Of a stretch of DNA of 64,000 nucleotides, positions 15,638 through 46,694 are shown piece after piece. The stretch is from assembly GCA_016744655.1 (NCBI GenBank), contig JADGDY010000006.1:1-64000 (forward strand). Reading direction: 5' to 3'. The notes below the pieces were generated by a model. The model was given only the letters and a program-made list of their open reading frames with translations. It was not told where the DNA came from and searched no databases. The position numbers were made by a program, and so were the translations under genes. This stretch comes from Bacteroidales bacterium. GTDB lineage: Bacteria > Bacteroidota > Bacteroidia > Bacteroidales > UBA12170. Positions within the stretch are counted from its first letter, which is position 1, and each line of letters begins with the position of its first letter.

Positions 15638-16843
15638 ATGGGTATTCAAACTAAGGAACTACCGAATGGGCAAAAACCTATTCCGGGGAAGTTCACGAAA
15701 ATACTATGGTGGTTTTCTACTGCTATACCAGAATTAATAAGAGATTGTACAACTGACAGATATAGGGCCAGGATAATTGGAGCAGGAGTTGTTTTTACTT
15801 GGGTTTATGCCACTGTTGCTTGGATTTATTTTTGGTCATTAAACATATTTTCACCTTTTCTATTTGTCCCACTTGGTATATTAATTGGATTTGGGATTTT
15901 GAGTATCGATAGAATGCTTATTGCGAGTATCAGCAAAAACAAGAAAAGTAAAATAGCTATTACTTTTAGAATTCTTTTAGCCATTCTTTTGGGTTCATTT
16001 ATTGCTCAGCCCATTTTACTTTGGATGTTTGAGAAAGACATTAGCCAAGAAATTTCTATAGTTCAAGAAGAGAAGGTACAAGAAAAAAGAACGGAGGTGC
16101 AAGCCATCTATCAATCAGAAAAAGAAAACCTCATCGCAAAGAAAAACTCCTTATACATTGATAAATCAATAAAATATAGTGCTCTTGAAAAAGCTGAGAA
16201 AGAATATATTGATGAAATAGATGGAACAGGTGGCTCTAAGAAATTCGGGATTGCCGGAATCGCTCGCGAAAAAGAAAAAGCATATTTAAGAACTCAGCAA
16301 GCTTATCAAGATATGGAGGAGTCTCAAAAGAAAGAACTTTCTAGAATTGAAAAAAGATTAATGAATATCGATAGCACTATCAACAGTGGAACAGAGGATT
16401 TTAAAACCAACAAACTCTCCGAAGGTTTTCTCATTAGAGTCGATGCATTGCAAAGTTTATTTGAGAAAGACGAGCACTATGCCCTTCAAAAAAGATACTA
16501 CCTCATCTTGCTCATCTTAGTACTGTTTGAACTCATTCCTATTATCAGCAAACTATATTTGCCTACTGGTTCTTATGACGAGAAAGTAAAGCTCCAAGAT
16601 GAATTAGAGCTAAAACTCGCTCAACTCAACCAAGAACAAAATATAGATTTGCATGAACATACTTTTTCTGTAGCACAAGAATCGGATAAATTAATATCCT
16701 CAGAGATCTATAATCAAGCTCCTCAAAAACAAAAGGAAAAACTAGAAGAGTTGATGCAAGAATGGAAAGCTTCGCCTCAATTAAGTTTTGAGGAATTTCT
16801 TAATCAGGTAAAGTTTAAGATGATGCGAAACCGGGAAGTATAA
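15638..16843 (+). CDS. DUF4407 domain membrane protein
   Basis: 401 residues. The layout is a cytoplasmic start, helices near 45-65, 67-90 and 108-130, a long charged and helical middle (about 135-280, rich in Glu/Lys and likely coiled coil), a fourth helix near 288-305, and a charged tail. The opening ILWWFSTAIPELI and GFGILSIDRMLIAS match the DUF4407 family as I recall it. Function is unknown; a membrane scaffold is only a guess. It lies just upstream of the trp leader region but has no evident link to tryptophan metabolism. Confidence 0.85.
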   Translation: MGIQTKELPNGQKPIPGKFTKILWWFSTAIPELIRDCTTDRYRARIIGAGVVFTWVYATVAWIYFWSLNIFSPFLFVPLGILIGFGILSIDRMLIASISKNKKSKIAITFRILLAILLGSFIAQPILLWMFEKDISQEISIVQEEKVQEKRTEVQAIYQSEKENLIAKKNSLYIDKSIKYSALEKAEKEYIDEIDGTGGSKKFGIAGIAREKEKAYLRTQQAYQDMEESQKKELSRIEKRLMNIDSTINSGTEDFKTNKLSEGFLIRVDALQSLFEKDEHYALQKRYYLILLILVLFELIPIISKLYLPTGSYDEKVKLQDELELKLAQLNQEQNIDLHEHTFSVAQESDKLISSEIYNQAPQKQKEKLEELMQEWKASPQLSFEEFLNQVKFKMMRNREV

Positions 16844-16883
16844 AACAATTAGTGTTAACAGAAGATTAATTTAATCAAGCACA

Positions 16884-16914
16884 TTTTGACAATTAAAAAA
16901 AATGGCTACATTTG
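16884..16914 (+). promoter_or_regulatory. Promoter of the trp operon
   Basis: TTTTG (16884-16888), an 18-base spacer, then TACATTTG (16907-16914) fits the TTG / TAnnTTTG arrangement of Bacteroidota promoters. Transcription should start only a few bases before the first leader ATG at 16923, so the first leader peptide has almost no 5' untranslated region. Confidence 0.8.
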
Positions 16915-16922
16915 TCCTCGAA

Positions 16923-16970
16923 ATGAATAACAACATGAACATAAATAATTGGTGGCTTTTAGACTTATAA
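16923..16970 (+). CDS. trp leader peptide 1 (15 residues, Trp-Trp)
   Basis: MNNNMNINNWWLLDL is too short for ordinary gene finding. Two adjacent TGG codons (16950-16955) sit just before the first arm of a hairpin. It starts about 8 bases after the -7 element and is followed by a terminator, the classical layout of a ribosome-mediated tryptophan attenuator. When Trp-tRNA is scarce the ribosome stalls at the TGG pair, freeing segment 2 to pair with segment 3. The M-x3-M opening recurs in leader peptide 2. Confidence 0.88.
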   Translation: MNNNMNINNWWLLDL

Positions 16971-17036
16971 TCTAAGAAGCAGCTATATTTATATAAAATA
17001 TTTTACAAGACCTGCTTTTATAGCAGGTCTTTTTTT
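16955..17036 (+). promoter_or_regulatory. Attenuator 1 of the trp operon, including terminator
   Basis: Three exclusive pairings can be drawn by eye. 1:2 pairs 16955-16963 with 16971-16980 (9 pairs, one bulged G). 2:3 pairs 16975-16982 with 17012-17019 (8 pairs, one G-U). 3:4 pairs 17007-17016 with 17022-17031 (10 pairs) followed by a T-run, the intrinsic terminator. Segment 1 begins at the last base of the second Trp codon. This is inference from complementarity; no folding program was run. Confidence 0.82.
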
Positions 17037-17057
17037 ATGCAAAAAAATTAAACAATC

Positions 17058-17120
17058 ATGACAAGAACGATGACAAATACAGCAAAATTTTGGTGGCACA
17101 ACTCAGGAACTCGAACCTAA
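17058..17120 (+). CDS. trp leader peptide 2 (20 residues, Trp-Trp)
   Basis: MTRTMTNTAKFWWHNSGTRT, with adjacent TGG codons at 17091-17096. It begins 22 bases after the first terminator's T-run, with no promoter of its own, so it is reached only by transcripts that read through attenuator 1. The two leaders share Met at positions 1 and 5, the Trp pair, and a CTAAGAAGC string at or just past the stop codon, which suggests they arose by duplication. Confidence 0.85.
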   Translation: MTRTMTNTAKFWWHNSGTRT

Positions 17121-17182
17121 GAAGCCCCAGTGTATTATATATAAATCAAATATAAAGCCTGCTTCTAGCAGGCTTTTTTTAT
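17091..17182 (+). promoter_or_regulatory. Attenuator 2 of the trp operon, including terminator
   Basis: 1:2 pairs 17091-17097 (the Trp codons themselves, T17094 bulged) with 17124-17129. 2:3 pairs AGAAGC 17120-17125 with GCTTCT 17161-17166. 3:4 pairs AAGCCTGCT 17155-17163 with AGCAGGCTT 17167-17175 (three-base loop) followed by a T-run. trpE starts at 17195, directly after the T-run. A five-codon frame (ATG 17181) ends in a 4-base ATGA overlap with the trpE start. Confidence 0.8.
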
Positions 17183-17194
17183 GCTCAATAAATT

Positions 17195-18607
17195 ATGAAA
17201 AGAAAAGTATATACAAGTTATATAAAGACTATCGCCGACCTCATCACACCTGTGGGAGTATATAGCGCCCTTAGAGACCATTACCCAAATGCGCTCTTAC
17301 TTGAAAGTGCCGATTATCACGACAGAAGCGATAGTAAAAGCTTTATCTGCCTTAATCCAATTGCGGGATTTGAAGCCACTCAAAAAAACTATGAAATACA
17401 TTATCTCGGAGAGGAGTCTCAAAAAGTAGTCGCTACTAAAAACGAAGACATCCTCCATTCTTTTAAAAGATTCCTAGAGTCTTTTGAGCCTGTGGAAACT
17501 GATTTACCCTTCAATAGCTCTGGATTATTTGGGTTTTCCTCTTTTGAATCTGTTCAATATATGGAAGACATTGAAATGACCAACCCTAGTGATATCATGA
17601 AAGATAATCCAGATATGAAATATCAGCTTTTTGAATTTATTCTAGTCTTCGACCATTTTAAAAATGAGCTGTATATCACTCAAAATAGCATTGACAAAAA
17701 CATAGAAAGTCCAAAAGAATTAGAAAAGTTTAAAGGGTTTTTGAGATTACAAAGCGACCCAGAATTCAAGTTCAATAAAGTAGAAGAGGAATCTGCAAAT
17801 ATTGATGCCAATACTTTTAAGGCCAATGTAAAAAAAGGGATTCATCATTGCTTAAGAGGAGATGTATTCCAGTTGGTATTGTCACGCCGATTTCAACAGA
17901 AATTCAAAGGCGACGATTTCAATGTTTACCGCAGTTTAAGAAGCATCAATCCTTCACCTTATCTCTTTTATTTCGATTATGGGAATTTCAAAATCATGGG
18001 CTCCTCACCTGAATCTCAATTAAAGATTAACAAAGGAATGGCTATTATAAATCCCATTGCAGGAACAGTTTTAAGAAGTCAAAATTCGGCAGAAGATGCT
18101 GAAAGAGCAAAAGCTTTACAAAACGACCCCAAAGAAAAAGCAGAACACGTAATGCTTGTAGACTTGGCAAGAAACGATTTGAGTAAGAACTCAGACAAAG
18201 TGAATGTGGAGACATATGCTGAAATTCAATATTTCTCTCATGTAATTCATATGGTAAGCCAAGTGAGTGGGAAGCTGAACAAAGATGCCAATGGTTTAGA
18301 CATTTATGCCGACACATTCCCTGCAGGAACACTATCTGGTGCACCAAAATATAGAGCCTTAGAAATCATAAATGAAACAGAAACATCTACTCGTAATTTC
18401 TATGGTGGTGCTCTAGGATTTATGGGTTTCGATGGCAGTATCAATCATGCCATCATCATACGCTCTTTATTGAGTAAAAACCAAACTTTAAATTACCAAG
18501 CTGGAGCCGGAATAGTCGCTCACAGTACTCCAGAAGGAGAATTACAAGAAGTAGACAATAAAGTAGCTGCCTTAAGGAAAGCCATTGAAATAGCACAAAC
18601 ACTATAA
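17195..18607 (+). CDS. trpE: Anthranilate synthase component I
   Basis: Chorismate-binding subunit that, with TrpG, makes anthranilate from chorismate and glutamine or ammonia. The 470 residues include LLESADYH near residue 34, the tryptophan feedback-site motif (LLES) of TrpE, and SPYLFYFDYG near 250. GTLSGAPKYRALEIINETE near 376 and the glycine-rich C-terminal GAGIVAHSTPEGE complete the chorismate-binding fold. The LLES motif separates it from PabB and implies feedback inhibition by tryptophan. It is the first structural gene after the double attenuator; trpG follows after 3 bases. Confidence 0.97.
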   Translation: MKRKVYTSYIKTIADLITPVGVYSALRDHYPNALLLESADYHDRSDSKSFICLNPIAGFEATQKNYEIHYLGEESQKVVATKNEDILHSFKRFLESFEPVETDLPFNSSGLFGFSSFESVQYMEDIEMTNPSDIMKDNPDMKYQLFEFILVFDHFKNELYITQNSIDKNIESPKELEKFKGFLRLQSDPEFKFNKVEEESANIDANTFKANVKKGIHHCLRGDVFQLVLSRRFQQKFKGDDFNVYRSLRSINPSPYLFYFDYGNFKIMGSSPESQLKINKGMAIINPIAGTVLRSQNSAEDAERAKALQNDPKEKAEHVMLVDLARNDLSKNSDKVNVETYAEIQYFSHVIHMVSQVSGKLNKDANGLDIYADTFPAGTLSGAPKYRALEIINETETSTRNFYGGALGFMGFDGSINHAIIIRSLLSKNQTLNYQAGAGIVAHSTPEGELQEVDNKVAALRKAIEIAQTL

Positions 18608-18610
18608 GAA

Positions 18611-19195
18611 ATGAAAATATTAGTATTAGATAATTACGATAGCTTCACCTATAATTTGGTTTATATATTGAAGCAAAACAATCTAGATTTTGATGTCTTA
18701 AGGAATGATAAGATTACCAAAGAAGAAGCTCTAGATTATGATGGAATTCTATTGTCTCCAGGCCCAGGAATTCCAGAGGAAGCAGGAAACATGCCTAGTA
18801 TTATTGAAGCTTGCGCAGGACGAATTCCAATACTCGGTATTTGTCTGGGACACCAAGCCATTGCTCAATATCTTGGAGGCGAAATCATCAATAGAAACGA
18901 TGTACTTCATGGTATGCAAACTCCCATTCTTCTCACCAAAAAGGACTCTCCAATTTTTAGAAATGTTCCAGAATCTTTTGAAGCCGGTCGGTATCATTCA
19001 TGGGAACTAAACAAAGGTGAAGTTCCAGAGAAAATAGAAGCTACTGCTATTGATGAGCAAGGAAGTATTATGGCGCTACAAAATCTAGATTTGAATCTAT
19101 ATGGATTCCAATTTCATCCTGAAAGCATCATGACCCCAGAAGGAAAGACAATGGTAGATAATTTTATAGAAATCTGTAAAACTCAGGCCTCATGA
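18611..19195 (+). CDS. trpG: Anthranilate synthase component II (glutamine amidotransferase)
   Basis: Glutaminase subunit that supplies ammonia to TrpE; a class I amidotransferase of 194 residues. The catalytic Cys78 is in GICLGHQ, with the partner His and Glu in FQFHPESIMT near residue 168. The start YDSFTYNLV and GPGIPEEAG near 52 are typical. It may also serve PabB if no separate PabA exists, which cannot be judged here. Its stop overlaps the trpD start by four bases (ATGA), indicating translational coupling. Confidence 0.97.
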   Translation: MKILVLDNYDSFTYNLVYILKQNNLDFDVLRNDKITKEEALDYDGILLSPGPGIPEEAGNMPSIIEACAGRIPILGICLGHQAIAQYLGGEIINRNDVLHGMQTPILLTKKDSPIFRNVPESFEAGRYHSWELNKGEVPEKIEATAIDEQGSIMALQNLDLNLYGFQFHPESIMTPEGKTMVDNFIEICKTQAS

Positions 19196-20181
19196 AAAAG
19201 ATTTTAGAAAGACTATTTCATCATCAGAAATTAAGTCGAGAGGAGGCTAAAGATATACTAGGCTTCATCTCCGAAGGAAAATTCAGTGCTTGTGAAGTGA
19301 GTGCCTTCCTCACTGTTTTTCGTATGAGGAGTATCACCGTTGATGAGCTATGCGGTTTCAGAGATGGAATGATAGAGCGTTGTATTCCAATTGACTTGGG
19401 TGAATTTAATCCAGTGGATTTATGCGGAACAGGTGGCGATGGCAAAGATACTTTTAACATCAGTACTTTGGCATCTTTCGTAACAGCTGGGGCTGGAATT
19501 AAAGTGGCTAAACATGGAAACTATGGGGTGAGTTCTTCTTGTGGTTCCTCCAATGTAATGGAACATTTAGGCTACCAATTTACCAATCAGACTGACTTGC
19601 TCAAACAACAAATAGATAAAAGCGGAATCTGCTTCCTTCACGCTCCTCTATTTCATCCATCCATGAAAAATGTGGCTCCAATTAGAAGAGAAATAGGTGT
19701 CAAAACCTTCTTCAATATGCTAGGCCCAATGGTAAATCCAGCATCTCCCAAAAACCAAATGGTGGGAGTATATTCCTTGGAGTTACAGCGCTACTACAAA
19801 TACATTTATGAGCAAGAAAACAAGAATTATCGCATTGTTCATAGTATGGATGGATATGATGAAATCAGCTTAACCGCTCCGACTAAGGTTATCAGCCCTA
19901 AGAAAGAATATATGCTAAGTCCAGACCTCATCAGTAAAGAAAAAATAAATCCAGTAGATTTAATGGGAGGAAAAACAGTGGCAGAATCAGCAAACATATT
20001 CACAAGAATATTAAATGGTGAAGGAACTTATGCCCAAAACAGAGCCGTAATTGCAAATGCAGCCATGGCCATTAAAGCGCTACATTCAGAAAAATCCTTT
20101 GAAGATTGCCTAAATATGGCACAAGAATCTTTGGAAAGTAAAAAAGCACAACAAGCCCTAAAAACCTTAATTTCATCATGA
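19192..20181 (+). CDS. trpD: Anthranilate phosphoribosyltransferase
   Basis: Transfers the phosphoribosyl group of PRPP to anthranilate, the second committed step of tryptophan synthesis. 329 residues. The PRPP-binding loop GTGGDGKDTFNIST starts near residue 80, KHGNYGVSSSCGSSNVME near 105, and RREIGVKTFFNMLGPMVNP near 164. Family length is about 335-345, so it is complete. It is coupled by 4-base overlaps to both trpG and trpC. Confidence 0.97.
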   Translation: MKKILERLFHHQKLSREEAKDILGFISEGKFSACEVSAFLTVFRMRSITVDELCGFRDGMIERCIPIDLGEFNPVDLCGTGGDGKDTFNISTLASFVTAGAGIKVAKHGNYGVSSSCGSSNVMEHLGYQFTNQTDLLKQQIDKSGICFLHAPLFHPSMKNVAPIRREIGVKTFFNMLGPMVNPASPKNQMVGVYSLELQRYYKYIYEQENKNYRIVHSMDGYDEISLTAPTKVISPKKEYMLSPDLISKEKINPVDLMGGKTVAESANIFTRILNGEGTYAQNRAVIANAAMAIKALHSEKSFEDCLNMAQESLESKKAQQALKTLISS

Positions 20182-20975
20182 CCATTTTAGAAAAAATCAT
20201 CGCTACAAAACAGCAAGAAGTAGCCCATAACAAATCAATAACTCCAGTAAAGCTTCTGGAAAGCAGTATTTATTTCGAGACCGAAAAAGTCTCCATGAAA
20301 GAATACCTATTGCGCCCAGACAAAGTGGGAATTATTGCGGAAATCAAAAGGAAATCGCCAAGTACGGGTGAGCTAAAATCTAGTGTTAATATAGAAGAGT
20401 TAAGCATTGGCTATATGCAAGCTGGAGCTACTGCACTTTCTGTTTTAACCGACAACACCTATTTTGGAGGACAAAACAAAGACCTTACTGAAGCTAGAAA
20501 ATTCAACTATTGCCCCATCCTTCGAAAAGATTTCATCATCGACGAATATCAAATTCTTGAAGCCAAAAGCATAGGCGCCGATTGCATTCTCTTAATAGCT
20601 GCAAATCTAAGCCCACAAAGATGTTTGGAGTTGGCGAAATTCGCCCATAAACTTGGTTTAGAGGTCTTAATGGAGGTTCACTCCAAAGAAGAATTAGACA
20701 GCCATTGTAATGTACATTTGGATATTGTAGGGGTTAATAATAGAAACCTCCACGATTTCAGCACAAATATTGAGACCTCCATGAAACTATCGGAGTTTAT
20801 TCCTGAGGAGTTCGTGAAAATTAGTGAAAGTGGAATTACAGAAGCCGAACAAGTCCTTCAGTTAAAAGAATATGGTTTTAAAGGCTTTTTGGTGGGTGGT
20901 CATTTTATGAAAATGGCCGAACCAGTAGTAGCATGCCGTGAATTAATTTCCAACATTCAACACCAACTGTCATGA
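20178..20975 (+). CDS. trpC: Indole-3-glycerol phosphate synthase
   Basis: TIM-barrel enzyme that closes the indole ring from carboxyphenylaminodeoxyribulose phosphate with loss of CO2. The 265-residue chain shows IAEIKRKSPSTGELK near residue 52 (catalytic Lys and phosphate contacts), ILRKDFIIDEYQI near 114, IVGVNNRNLHDF near 186 and ISESGI near 215. It is a separate gene, not fused to trpF as in enterobacteria. It overlaps trpD and trpF by four bases each. Confidence 0.97.
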   Translation: MTILEKIIATKQQEVAHNKSITPVKLLESSIYFETEKVSMKEYLLRPDKVGIIAEIKRKSPSTGELKSSVNIEELSIGYMQAGATALSVLTDNTYFGGQNKDLTEARKFNYCPILRKDFIIDEYQILEAKSIGADCILLIAANLSPQRCLELAKFAHKLGLEVLMEVHSKEELDSHCNVHLDIVGVNNRNLHDFSTNIETSMKLSEFIPEEFVKISESGITEAEQVLQLKEYGFKGFLVGGHFMKMAEPVVACRELISNIQHQLS

Positions 20976-21595
20976 TTTTGAAAGTCTGTGGGATGAAATA
21001 TCCTGATAATATTTTACCGCTTGCTGAAGAAAAGCCAGATATGATGGGCTTTATATTCTATCCAAAGTCAAAGCGGTATGTGGATAAAAAAGACCTTAAG
21101 AAGACCTTTTTAAAATGTGATAAAAATATTGATAAAGTGGCTGTGTTTGTAAATGAACCTGCCAAATTCATCGCTTCAGAATTGGAGGGATTGAACTTTA
21201 AATACATCCAATTACATGGCAAAGAAACAGTAGATGAAATTATAAAACTCAAGAAATGCGGCTATAAAATCATAAAGGCTTTTCCAATGAGTAATGATTT
21301 TGATTGGTCTCTTACTAAAGAATATGAGCAATATTGTGAATATTTCGTGTTTGACACCTCCACACCAAAACATGGAGGAAGTGGACTACAATTTGACTGG
21401 AACTTACTCAAAAACTATACCGACCAAACTCCATTTCTATTAAGCGGAGGAATTTCCATTCAAGATATGGAGCGTATTAAAATATTTCAGCATCCTCAGT
21501 TTTCGGGCATCGATATCAACAGTAAATTTGAAATAGAACCAGGATTAAAAAACATTGATTTAGTTAAAAGAATGATTAAAGAATTTAGAAAATGA
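20972..21595 (+). CDS. trpF: Phosphoribosylanthranilate isomerase
   Basis: Amadori isomerase of the third pathway step; a TIM barrel of 207 residues. [12 protein letters not shown] at the start holds the catalytic Cys, and [17 protein letters not shown] near residue 125 carries the catalytic Asp and a phosphate loop. LLSGGIS near 151 and [17 protein letters not shown] near 176 complete the barrel's C-terminal half. It sits between trpC and trpB with ATGA overlaps on both sides, so six genes from trpG to trpB form one unbroken coupled block. Confidence 0.97.
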
Positions 21596-22773
21596 ACAAG
21601 GAAAAAACATCTAATCATATAGACAATGAAGGGTTTTATGGCGAATTTGGCGGTGCCTTTATTCCCGAAATGCTTCATCCAAATATTGAAGAATTAAAAT
21701 CTTCCTACATCAATATTATTGAAGCTGAAGAATTTCAAAAAGAGTTTAAAGAACTTCTAAGAAATTATGTGGGACGCCCCACTCCAATTTATCATGCAAA
21801 AAGATTAAGTGAGCATTATCAAACGCAAATTTTTCTGAAACGCGAAGACCTTTGTCATACGGGTGCACATAAAATCAATAATGCTCTAGGGCAAATATTA
21901 TTGGCTCAAAAACTCAATAAAACCAGAATTATTGCCGAAACTGGCGCTGGACAACATGGGGTGGCCACTGCAACGGCTTGTGCATTAATGGGTATGAAAT
22001 GTGTAGTTTATATGGGTGCAGTAGATGTGGAAAGACAAGCTCCAAATGTAGCCAGAATGAAAATGCTAGGAGCTGAAGTGATTCCTGTGGAAAGTGGTAG
22101 TAAAACCTTAAAAGATGCGACCAATGAAGCCATTCGTGATTGGATAACTAATCCTAGAGATACGCATTATATTATTGGTTCAGTGGTTGGACCGCATCCG
22201 TATCCAGATTTAGTGGCTCGATTGCAATCTGTTATCAGTGAGGAAATCATGAGCCAGATGCCGGAGGAGCCTAGTCATATTATTGCTTGTGTAGGAGGAG
22301 GCAGCAATGCCATTGGAGCATTTTATCACTTTTTAGATAAGGAGCAAGTGGAGTTAATTGGAGTGGAAGCAGCCGGAAAAGGTATTCATTCCAACGAAAC
22401 TGCTGCAACTTTAACATTAGGCAACACTGGAGTTTTACATGCCAGCATGACCACTTTATTACAAACCAAAGATGGACAAGTCATTGAACCGCACAGTATT
22501 TCTGCCGGATTAGATTATCCCGGAATTGGTCCTCAACATGCACATTTACATCAAAATAAAAGAGTGAAATATGTAAGTGCAACCGATGATGAGGCGGTTA
22601 AAGCAGCTTTTCTATTAACCCAAAAAGAAGGGATTATTCCTGCTCTAGAATCGGCCCATGCCTTTGCCTATTTGGAACAGCAAAAATGGAAATCAACTGA
22701 TAGAGTGCTCATTAATTTAAGTGGTCGTGGAGACAAAGACCTCAGTACGTATACCAAATACAATCCATATTGA
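21592..22773 (+). CDS. trpB: Tryptophan synthase beta chain
   Basis: PLP enzyme that condenses indole with L-serine to tryptophan. The 393 residues include GGAFIPEML near residue 20, [19 protein letters not shown] with the PLP Lys94, [12 protein letters not shown] near 121 and GGGSNAIG (phosphate loop) near 237. It has the TrpB1 type architecture, matching a TrpA encoded downstream. Unlike the overlapping genes before it, trpB is separated from trpA by 157 bases containing a large hairpin. Confidence 0.98.
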
Positions 22774-22805
22774 TTGATATAAATCGTTTCTATTTCCCTT
22801 TCTTA

Positions 22806-22857
22806 TTGAAATAAAATAGTTCCATAGCTAAGGCTATGCAAAGATTTTATTTCTCAA
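22806..22857. repeat. Long imperfect hairpin in the trpB-trpA gap
   Basis: GAAATAAAAT (22808-22817) is perfectly answered by ATTTTATTTC (22844-22853). An inner stem CATAGC/GCTATG (22823-22828 and 22833-22838) closes on TAAG. No T-run follows, so a simple terminator is unlikely; an mRNA processing or stability element, or a small palindromic insertion, fits better. Confidence 0.65.
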
Positions 22858-22930
22858 TTAAAAAAAATATAAACCAATTTATCTATCCATCATATGGAAT
22901 AGTAATTGGTATGACTCAAAATTTATTTAA

Positions 22931-23692
22931 ATGCGATTAGAAGAATTATTAAAACAAGAAACAAAGCCGCTTTTGAGTATTTATTTCTCTGCTGGTTTTC
23001 CTCAGATTGATAGTCTTCCTGTGCTTCTCGAATCACTAGAAAGCGCTGGAGCAGATATGGTAGAAATTGGGATTCCCTATTCCGACCCCATTAGCGATGG
23101 CCCCACTATTCAGCACAGCAATAGCATTGCTCTGGAAAATGGAATTTCCTTAGAACTCATATTTCAACAATTGGAAAGTTCCTCCACTACCATCCCAAAA
23201 ATAATGATGGGATATTTTAATTCTATTCTGCAATTTGGAGTAGAAGCTTTTTGTGAGAGATGCTCTGAAACTGGGATTACGGGTATTATTCTTCCCGATT
23301 TGCCCCTGGAAATCTATCAAAAGAAATATCAAAAGACCTTTGAAAAACATCAACTTAGTTTCATCCTTCTTATTACTCCTGAAACTAGTGAAGAACGAAT
23401 CCGGTTGATTGATAATCACTCTACTTCATTTATATATGCAGTAAGTAGCGCAGGAACTACTGGTACAAAAAAAGGTATTCAAGGAGCTAAAAAATATCTT
23501 CAAAAAATTCAATCATTAAATCTAAAAACCCCGGTAATGGTAGGTTTCAATATTAGCAGACCAGAAGATTTCAAATTCGCCAGCAAATACACTAGAGGAG
23601 GAATCATAGGAAGCGCCTTCATTAAACATATCGAGAACAGTAATCATTTATCACAAGACACCCATCAATTTATCAAATATATTAAATCCTAA
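22931..23692 (+). CDS. trpA: Tryptophan synthase alpha chain
   Basis: Cleaves indole-3-glycerol phosphate to indole and glyceraldehyde-3-phosphate, passing indole to TrpB through the inter-subunit channel. 253 residues, a little short for the family. Motifs: ADMVEIGIPYSDPISDGP near residue 40 (catalytic Glu and Asp), MGYFNSILQFG near 93, ILPDLPLEI near 118, YAVSSAGTTG near 165 and VGFNISRPED near 200. It follows the 157-base gap after trpB and lies 3 bases before the DAHP synthase gene. Confidence 0.97.
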   Translation: MRLEELLKQETKPLLSIYFSAGFPQIDSLPVLLESLESAGADMVEIGIPYSDPISDGPTIQHSNSIALENGISLELIFQQLESSSTTIPKIMMGYFNSILQFGVEAFCERCSETGITGIILPDLPLEIYQKKYQKTFEKHQLSFILLITPETSEERIRLIDNHSTSFIYAVSSAGTTGTKKGIQGAKKYLQKIQSLNLKTPVMVGFNISRPEDFKFASKYTRGGIIGSAFIKHIENSNHLSQDTHQFIKYIKS

Positions 23693-23695
23693 ATC

Positions 23696-24712
23696 ATGAT
23701 TATACAATTAAACAAAAATATAGAATCAGGAGAAAACCTACAATTAGAACAAACTTTAGCTCAACAAAACATTCCATTTTACCCAGTAAATACACAGCTA
23801 GGTGAATATATTATCTGCACCCCAAATCAAGATTTCGATATCAGAAAAATTGGTCAATTAAAAGGAATTAAAGATGTACATAGAGTGAATGGAACCCACA
23901 AAATGGTCAGCAATAAATGGAAGGTGAAAAGAAGTAAAATAGATGTTGGTGATGGAATAGAAATTGGGGCTGGCGAAATGACAATAATGGCTGGTCCCTG
24001 TAGTATTGAAGACGAATCTCAAATTATAAAAACAGTGGAGCAATTAAAGAAAAATGGGGTAAAAATCATGCGAGGAGGAGTCTATAAACCCAGAACCAGT
24101 CCCTATAGTTTTAGAGGTCATGGTATGGAAGGGCTCAAAATGTTTCATAAGGTATGCCAAGCCAACGATATTAAAATCATTACAGAAGTGATGGAAACCG
24201 GACAAATTGATGCCATGGCACCATATGTGGATATTTTTCAGGTGGGCGCGAGAAACTCTCAAAACTTCAACCTTCTTGAAGCATTAGGACAAATAGACAA
24301 ACCAGTAATGATAAAACGTGGAATCAGCGGTAGTATTGACGAGTTACTGTATTCTGCAGAGTATGTTTTCAAAAATGGAAACGAAAAACTCATTCTTTGT
24401 GAAAGAGGAATCCGAACCTATGAGAAAGCTTATAGGAATACTTTAGATTTAAATGCTGTTCCTATTTTGAAAGAAAAATCACACTTACCTGTAATTGTAG
24501 ATCCTAGTCATGGAATTGGATTAAGAAAACACATTGTACCCATGACATTAGCCAGTATGGCCTCAGGTGCCGATGGAGTGATTATCGAGATGCATGAAAC
24601 CCCAGAAAAAGCAGCTACCGACGGACAACAAACCATCGATTATAGCGAATTTAATTCGTTGATGGGGAAACTGAATACGCTGTCTGGAGTTTTGAATGGC
24701 TGGTATAATTAG
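23696..24712 (+). CDS. aroF: 3-Deoxy-7-phosphoheptulonate synthase (DAHP synthase, type I-beta) with N-terminal regulatory domain
   Basis: First enzyme of the shikimate pathway, condensing phosphoenolpyruvate and erythrose 4-phosphate. The 338 residues split into a ferredoxin-like/ACT-like regulatory part (about 1-75) and a TIM barrel. The barrel shows MAGPCSIEDE near residue 98, RGGVYKPRTSPYSFRG near 126, GARNSQNF near 184, KRGISGS near 207 and VDPSHGIG near 264. In characterised I-beta enzymes the N-terminal domain mediates feedback inhibition by aromatic amino acids; which one acts here is unknown. As the last gene of the trp unit it would be attenuated with the rest, tying supply of chorismate to tryptophan demand. 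Confidence 0.94.
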   Translation: MIIQLNKNIESGENLQLEQTLAQQNIPFYPVNTQLGEYIICTPNQDFDIRKIGQLKGIKDVHRVNGTHKMVSNKWKVKRSKIDVGDGIEIGAGEMTIMAGPCSIEDESQIIKTVEQLKKNGVKIMRGGVYKPRTSPYSFRGHGMEGLKMFHKVCQANDIKIITEVMETGQIDAMAPYVDIFQVGARNSQNFNLLEALGQIDKPVMIKRGISGSIDELLYSAEYVFKNGNEKLILCERGIRTYEKAYRNTLDLNAVPILKEKSHLPVIVDPSHGIGLRKHIVPMTLASMASGADGVIIEMHETPEKAATDGQQTIDYSEFNSLMGKLNTLSGVLNGWYN

Positions 24713-45627: not shown

Positions 45628-46635
45628 ATGAAAAAACTATTAGCCCTACTTTTTATCAGTGCATTCACAATTGGTGTTGTGTCTTCACAAGATATAACTA
45701 CAGTTGAAGCTAAGTCTACTGACATTAGCGAGAACTTAGACCTAGAAGCAGTAGCTTCTATTTTTGGGGAAGCTGAAGATTTAGAAGATTTTGAAAAGAA
45801 ACTAAACGACCCAGAACTTCAAATATCTAACCTCGATTTAAATGAGGATGGTGAAGTTGACTACATTCGCGTAACAGAAGCATCTAAAGACAATACCCAT
45901 GTTGTAACACTACAAGCCACCATAGGAAAAGATCTATACCAAGATGTGGCCATTATTAGCGTTGAAAAAGATGATAAAGGTGAAACACAAGTACAGGTAG
46001 TTGGTGATGTTTATATGTATGGACCTGATTATATTATTCAACCTGTCTATGTTCATCCTCCTGTTATATGGGTTTGGTTTTGGGGACCACTTTATAGCCC
46101 TTGGCATTCTCCTTATTATTGGGGATATTATCCTCCATATTACAGACCTTGGACACCCTATCCTCCCCATAGATATCAAACCAATGTCCATATCCATGTT
46201 AATGTGAGTAATACTTATTCTAGGACAACTGTAAGAACCAGTAAAACATCTGTTAATATTCAGAATAAAAACAGAAGAAACGATTTTGGCTCCAAAAATC
46301 CTGACCGTTCTTATGAGAATAGGGCAAATAGTAAAGGTGTTAAAAGCAAAGATGCCAATAAACCTTCTACAAAACCAAATCGTGATGATAAAACTTCCAC
46401 TAGCCGTGAGGTAAATGACGATTGGAAACCTGCATCTGAGCGCTCTGGCGAGAAATCAAAAGTAAAAGACAACAAGGTGAGTACTCCTACTAAAAAACCT
46501 ACCACCACAAAGACAGATATAAAGCCTACAAGCAACCCAGCAAAAACTCCTACTAAAAGCTCAAATAAAACTACAACACAACAAAAAAGAACTGGTGCAG
46601 CAAAAGGAGCCAAAAAAGGTGGTGGAAGGAGATAA
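45628..46635 (+). CDS. Secreted EF-hand-like protein with aromatic segment and basic low-complexity tail (paralogue 2)
   Basis: 335 residues; signal peptide ending VVSSQ. The head matches the gene before it almost line by line (TDISENLDLEAVASIFGEAEDLEDFEKKLNDPEL in two runs, DLNEDGEVDYIRV, VVGDVYMYGPDYIIQPVYVH). The DNA is also very similar around 44545 and 46030, so the duplication is fairly recent. The tail has diverged: here it is rich in Lys, Thr, Ser and Pro (TPTKKPTTTKTDIKP) instead of Arg/Ser/Asn, and ends GAKKGGGRR. The Ca-loop residues are retained. Function unknown. Confidence 0.8.
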   Translation: MKKLLALLFISAFTIGVVSSQDITTVEAKSTDISENLDLEAVASIFGEAEDLEDFEKKLNDPELQISNLDLNEDGEVDYIRVTEASKDNTHVVTLQATIGKDLYQDVAIISVEKDDKGETQVQVVGDVYMYGPDYIIQPVYVHPPVIWVWFWGPLYSPWHSPYYWGYYPPYYRPWTPYPPHRYQTNVHIHVNVSNTYSRTTVRTSKTSVNIQNKNRRNDFGSKNPDRSYENRANSKGVKSKDANKPSTKPNRDDKTSTSREVNDDWKPASERSGEKSKVKDNKVSTPTKKPTTTKTDIKPTSNPAKTPTKSSNKTTTQQKRTGAAKGAKKGGGRR

Positions 46636-46661
46636 TTTTTATCTTTGGATTTAATAAATAC

Positions 46662-46694
46662 AAGAGCTTTTATTATAGGAGCTCTTTTTTTTAG
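46662..46694 (+). terminator. Intrinsic terminator after paralogue 2
   Basis: AAGAGCT pairs with AGCTCTT across an 11-base loop and runs into eight T. It lies 26 bases after the stop codon and just 10 bases before the racemase ATG. Confidence 0.8.

Follow-up and report, generated by a model that had tools for sequence, protein, structure and literature searches.

Two putative tryptophan attenuators in series upstream of trpE in a Bacteroidales genome

Single leader-peptide attenuators of trp genes are known in proteobacteria. They have also been described in Actinobacteria (PMC1262725) and, as the Bacteroid-trp motif (RF01692), in Bacteroidetes (Weinberg 2010, PMC2864571). In Firmicutes, trp operons can be preceded by tandem T-boxes, that is, two and, in one Streptococcus, three serial sensors of tRNA-Trp (PMC12452182). 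Two leader ORFs and two serial attenuators within one leader are found in Salmonella mgtCBR (Lee and Groisman 2012, PMC3641672).

Here we describe the region upstream of trpE in a 64-kb stretch of DNA (the window) from a Bacteroidales bacterium, which very probably carries two complete ribosome-mediated, Trp-sensing transcription attenuators in series, as judged by comparative sequence analysis. As in E. coli trpL (RF00513), trpE is preceded by a leader ORF in which Trp codons are adjacent, by hairpins that exclude one another, and by an intrinsic terminator. Unlike trpL, however, the window has two serial units, a near-leaderless leader 1, no TrpR above cut-off, and a short antiterminator that overlaps the leader stop codon, and its units score below the Rfam gathering threshold. 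The Bacteroid-trp motif is likewise a Bacteroidetes trp leader RNA with a UGGUGG peptide, but it was described as a motif, with no mention of a tandem in the main text (PMC2864571), and the window units fall below its threshold as well. The tandem trp T-boxes likewise place two or three sensors of one signal, charged tRNA-Trp, in series ahead of trp genes; a T-box binds the tRNA directly, whereas the sensor in the window would be the translating ribosome. The signals of mgtCBR are ATP and proline, with additive effects and no canonical intrinsic terminators, while the window leaders share one signal, both having adjacent Trp codons, and are followed by two intrinsic terminators. No report of same-signal serial leader-peptide attenuators was found in a literature search that omitted most subscription journals, and we regard this form of tandem attenuation as provisionally new. 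If true, the tandem design that T-boxes show at trp genes would have arisen a second time, with a different sensor. Attenuation theory handles one leader at a time.

Organization of the trpE leader region

Between position 16880 and the start of trpE at 17195, a promoter-like pair, leader 1, terminator 1, leader 2, and terminator 2 follow one another in this order, with a 21-nt spacer from terminator 1 to leader 2 (Table 1). A previous sequence-only reading had proposed two leader peptides of 15 and 20 residues with TGG TGG codons, each followed by a terminator with a T-run; both peptides were recovered, as were both terminators, whose 10-bp stems are also covered by the covariance model matches given below. 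The operon behind the leader comprises trpEGDCFBA and an aroF-type DAHP synthase gene, i.e., the entire trp pathway, the genes being named by their best NCBIfam match, which for some, trpE included, is below the curated cut-off.

Table 1. Features predicted in the trpE leader region and the operon behind it (window coordinates)
Feature	Position	Strand	Details
Bacteroidota-type promoter, predicted	16884–16914	+	TTTTG (-33) 16884–16888, 18-nt spacer, TACATTTG (-7) 16907–16914
Leader peptide 1	16923–16970	+	MNNNMNINNWWLLDL, 15 aa; TGGTGG 16950–16955
Unit 1 pause hairpin (1:2)	16950–16984	+	CUUUUAGA 16956–16963 with UCUAAGAAG 16971–16979; MFE fold
Unit 1 antiterminator (2:3)	16974–17020	+	AAGAAGCAG 16974–16982 with CUGCUUUU 17012–17019
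Terminator 1 (3:4)	17007–17036	+	AAGACCUGCU/AGCAGGUCUU, 10-bp stem and T-run; folding and covariance model
Leader peptide 2	17058–17120	+	MTRTMTNTAKFWWHNSGTRT, 20 aa; TGGTGG 17091–17096
Unit 2 pause hairpin (1:2)	17090–17130	+	UUGG-GGC with GCC-CCAG; MFE fold
Unit 2 antiterminator (2:3)	17119–17166	+	AGAAGC 17120–17125 with GCUUCU 17161–17166
Terminator 2 (3:4)	17154–17180	+	AAAGCCUGCU/AGCAGGCUUU, 10-bp stem and T-run; folding and covariance model
trpE	17195–18607	+	Best NCBIfam match TIGR00564 trpE_most, E 2.2e-127, below curated cut-off
trpG, trpD, trpC, trpF, trpB, trpA, aroF-type DAHP synthase	18611–24712	+	Best NCBIfam matches

The -7 box TACATTTG ends 8 nt 5' of ATG1, and the promoter-like TTTTG/TACATTTG pair is kept in the sister genome, G009. 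A similar -7 box lies 12–16 nt 5' of leader 1 in seven of the nine multi-unit loci described below, none of which has a -7-type box before a later leader. Because such a box precedes leader 1 alone, in line with the single promoter that had been proposed for both units, and because the next ATG follows each terminator too closely to leave room for a separate promoter outside the terminator, the later units are most likely reached only via read-through. An in-frame upstream ATG at 16902 (MATFVLE...) was rejected as the start of leader 1 since it sits within the promoter. On the 5' side of the -33 box, the block TGTTAACAGAAGATTAATTTAA (16853–16873), which may be an UP element or the site of a regulator, is kept in the sister genome, and the DNA farther upstream is unalignable.

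The two units were also found with a covariance model built from 35 trp leaders outside the TrpE clade of the window, with no window sequence inside. Its best match in the 64-kb window was 16938–17039 (44.8 bits, E 7.6e-8) and its second best 17078–17182 (36.3 bits, E 4.9e-6). No Rfam family matched the window at the gathering threshold; the two units scored 34.3 and 27.3 bits with RF00513 (Trp_leader; gathering 41 bits), and 34.9 and 31.3 bits with RF01692 (gathering 49 bits). T-boxes gave no match in the window at gathering, nor in 16700–17400 at E ≤ 10. An R1/R2 match at 46581–46693 was rejected as an ordinary terminator. In a survey of the phylum by covariance model with strict filters, two adjacent strong matches were seen, among the matches listed, only in the genome of the window.

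Alternative pairings within each unit

When the full leader was folded, each unit formed a 1:2 pause hairpin and a 3:4 terminator. The fold of unit 1 had a z of -4.2 (0 of 200 shuffles equally good) and that of unit 2 a z of -2.6 (3 of 200). The 2:3 hairpin was never the MFE structure after region 4 had been transcribed; with ribosome footprints set at the usual textbook distances, it was lost when a ribosome would sit over the stop codon. In both units, it became the MFE structure with region 1 removed and region 4 incomplete; folding with region 1 masked had been suggested as a check. In unit 1, the pairing of AAGAAGCAG and CUGCUUUU amounts to about -7 kcal/mol.

Across 106 non-redundant units, region 2 pairs with the top of its own terminator at a mean of -15.2 kcal/mol, compared with -11.5 for the terminators of other units (0 of 20,000 permutations equally good), and the mean z against its own shuffles is -1.76. 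Within the clade of the window, the 2:3 pairing covaries, as GAGAAG:CTTCTC, AAGAAG:CTTCTT, GGAAAG:CTTTCC (L142 unit 2), and GGGCAG:CTGCC (L145 unit 2); compensatory changes in this stem had been proposed as a test. The folds of both units thus contain the competing 1:2, 2:3, and 3:4 pairings of the sequence-only reading, but the unit 2 antiterminator is the weakest of them: its 2:3 pairing in the window is indistinguishable from shuffled sequence (39% of shuffles equally good). In the sister species, the corresponding value is 8%.

Multi-unit leaders among relatives and their history

The comparison covered 182 trpE upstream regions with enough upstream DNA, mostly from Bacteroidota and skewed to close TrpE relatives, so that the counts are not a rate for the phylum. 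A unit was called where a short ORF containing WW preceded a terminator; this detector gave 0 hits in 710 shuffled upstream regions. No unit was found in 23 regions, one in 150, two in eight, and three in one; a search for the tandem in related genomes had been recommended. The tandem loci are the window, G009 (same genus, TrpE 92%), L031 (an uncultured Flavobacteriales), L032 (an isolate of Brumimicrobium salinarum), L111, L142, L261, and L007, and the triple locus is L145. An assembly artefact was rejected, given that two separate genomes of the genus carry the tandem, as does the genome of the B. salinarum isolate. Two calls were excluded by hand: the apparent second unit of L008 sits in the preceding gene, and the unit of L021 is a stray WW ORF. 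In L145 (reverse strand), the three leaders and three terminators (MKRNNLNTMNIWWLSI, MHSFKVQSWQWWLYRNR, MSILTINSNSWWWCTLNQQI) extend from about 400 to 1 nt 5' of trpE. L261 is a very tight tandem, in which the ATG of leader 2 directly follows the T-run of terminator 1 (CCTTTTTTTATGG).

In the TrpE tree, eight of the nine multi-unit loci belong to one clade of 13 members (SH-aLRT 99), with L007 elsewhere. This clade mixes Saprospiraceae, Crocinitomicaceae, and the genus of the window, and its other five members have one unit each, which indicates that two units are not essential. A tree of the units, built on about 100 nt per unit, placed the first units of the window, G009, L032, L111, and L145 together (94/94), and the last units with the single units of L033 and L141 (91/91), a group that also contains the first unit of L142. 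The first units of the clade are closer to one another than to their own second units, and can still be recognised in different genera whose TrpE identity is about 62%. Since the first units of separate genera group with each other, the tandem probably derives from an old duplication that was inherited and sometimes lost. The duplication origin put forward previously is therefore supported by the unit tree, but the event would be older than had been implied. The two units of L007 are sisters (87/87), and there is, on this tree, at least one separate duplication, at that locus. TrpE is present in three of 11 genomes of the genus (the window, G004, and G009), and that of the window groups with copies from Saprospiraceae and Crocinitomicaceae; this patchiness and grouping suggest that the operon and its leader moved horizontally.

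Between the window and G009, trpE has 82% nucleotide identity. Leader 1 differs at 2 nt, both in synonymous codons. Leader 2, with 12 substitutions in 63 positions, has no indel and retains TGGTGG and the stop, and region 2 and the terminator of the unit are kept as well; with as many substitutions placed randomly, the ORF stayed intact in 3.6% of neutral simulations. Its codons otherwise vary freely between the sister species, and the Met positions shared by the two leaders, once taken as a sign of duplication, are accordingly weak evidence of it.

These data bear on whether only one unit works, the other being left over from the duplication or acting as a partial terminator that is always on and merely lowers expression. 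Regulatory DNA does become duplicated and the copies do decay, single units are common even within the clade, and the 2:3 pairing of window unit 2 is weak, all as a remnant would have it. However, neither unit of any of the eight tandem loci, and none of the three in L145, has lost its leader ORF, its adjacent Trp codons, or its terminator, first units have stayed recognisable across genera despite the TrpE divergence noted above, and leader 2 is intact despite 19% divergence, which makes a remnant improbable in our judgment.

A model of serial attenuation and its variants

The sequence-only proposal of two complete attenuators in series behind one promoter held up against the covariance model, the folding, the conservation in the sister species and in other families, the triple locus, and the unit tree. 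In the preferred reading, two working attenuators in series, RNA polymerase would start just 5' of leader 1. When the supply of charged tRNA-Trp is ample, the ribosome would reach the stop codon and cover region 2, the 3:4 hairpin would form, and transcription would stop near 17036. When charged tRNA-Trp runs short, the ribosome would stall at TGGTGG and regions 2 and 3 would pair before region 4 is made, allowing read-through. A polymerase past terminator 1 would then meet the same Trp test at leader 2. As trpE would be transcribed only if both terminators are passed, the read-through probabilities should multiply, which could give a larger on/off ratio and a steeper response. Sequence and comparison show the anatomy, the order of the units after a single promoter-like box, their conservation, and an old duplication; that both sites terminate, that Trp controls both units, and that read-through multiplies, we infer. 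Kept across several bacterial families, the serial arrangement should widen the response of the operon relative to a single switch. For unit 2, a new ribosome would have to initiate in time at ATG2, which lies some 20 nt past terminator 1; if this were slow, termination at unit 2 would be independent of Trp.

A steeper switch and two Trp-tRNA thresholds are both plausible. A graded two-step response, in which the units read the same tRNA at different thresholds, set for instance by two versus three Trp codons or by unequal rates of leader initiation, would be compatible with serial attenuation as a variant of it, and we hold it as a tentative and rather doubtful one. It is suggested by L032, L111, and L145, whose first unit has WW and last unit WWW, and by the position of leader 1, at most about 10 nt from the likely mRNA 5' end, compared with the internal leader 2. 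On the other hand, Trp codons are equal in the two units of the window (two each) and of L031, L142, and L261 (three each), and the stricter unit in a series would dominate.

It is far less probable that the units form a composite switch, in which the antiterminator strand freed in unit 1 also disarms terminator 2 at long range. In the window, L002, L032, L111, and L261, region 2 of unit 1 does outpair that of unit 2 at terminator 2; in the window, 16974–16982 would pair with the top of terminator 2 (17159–17166) at -13.7, against -10.5 for unit 2's own region 2. This match is accounted for by the common descent of the units, however, and the pattern is absent in L031, L142, and L145; moreover, unit 1 would already be using its region 2.

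Serial attenuation may also be related to the repressor. In E. coli, much of the control range of trp comes from TrpR. TrpR was not detected above the Pfam cut-off in any of 12 genomes, eight of them with tandem or triple leaders, while the E. coli control was positive. Given this and the share of TrpR in the range of E. coli, stacked attenuators may replace it. We lean towards the view that a Bacteroidota lineage stacked two to three same-signal attenuators in place of the repressor, as a digital switch parallel to the trp T-boxes of Firmicutes. Since related genomes in which TrpR was not detected have one, two, or three units ahead of the same gene, the benefit of stacking, be it in range, steepness, or noise, is directly testable.
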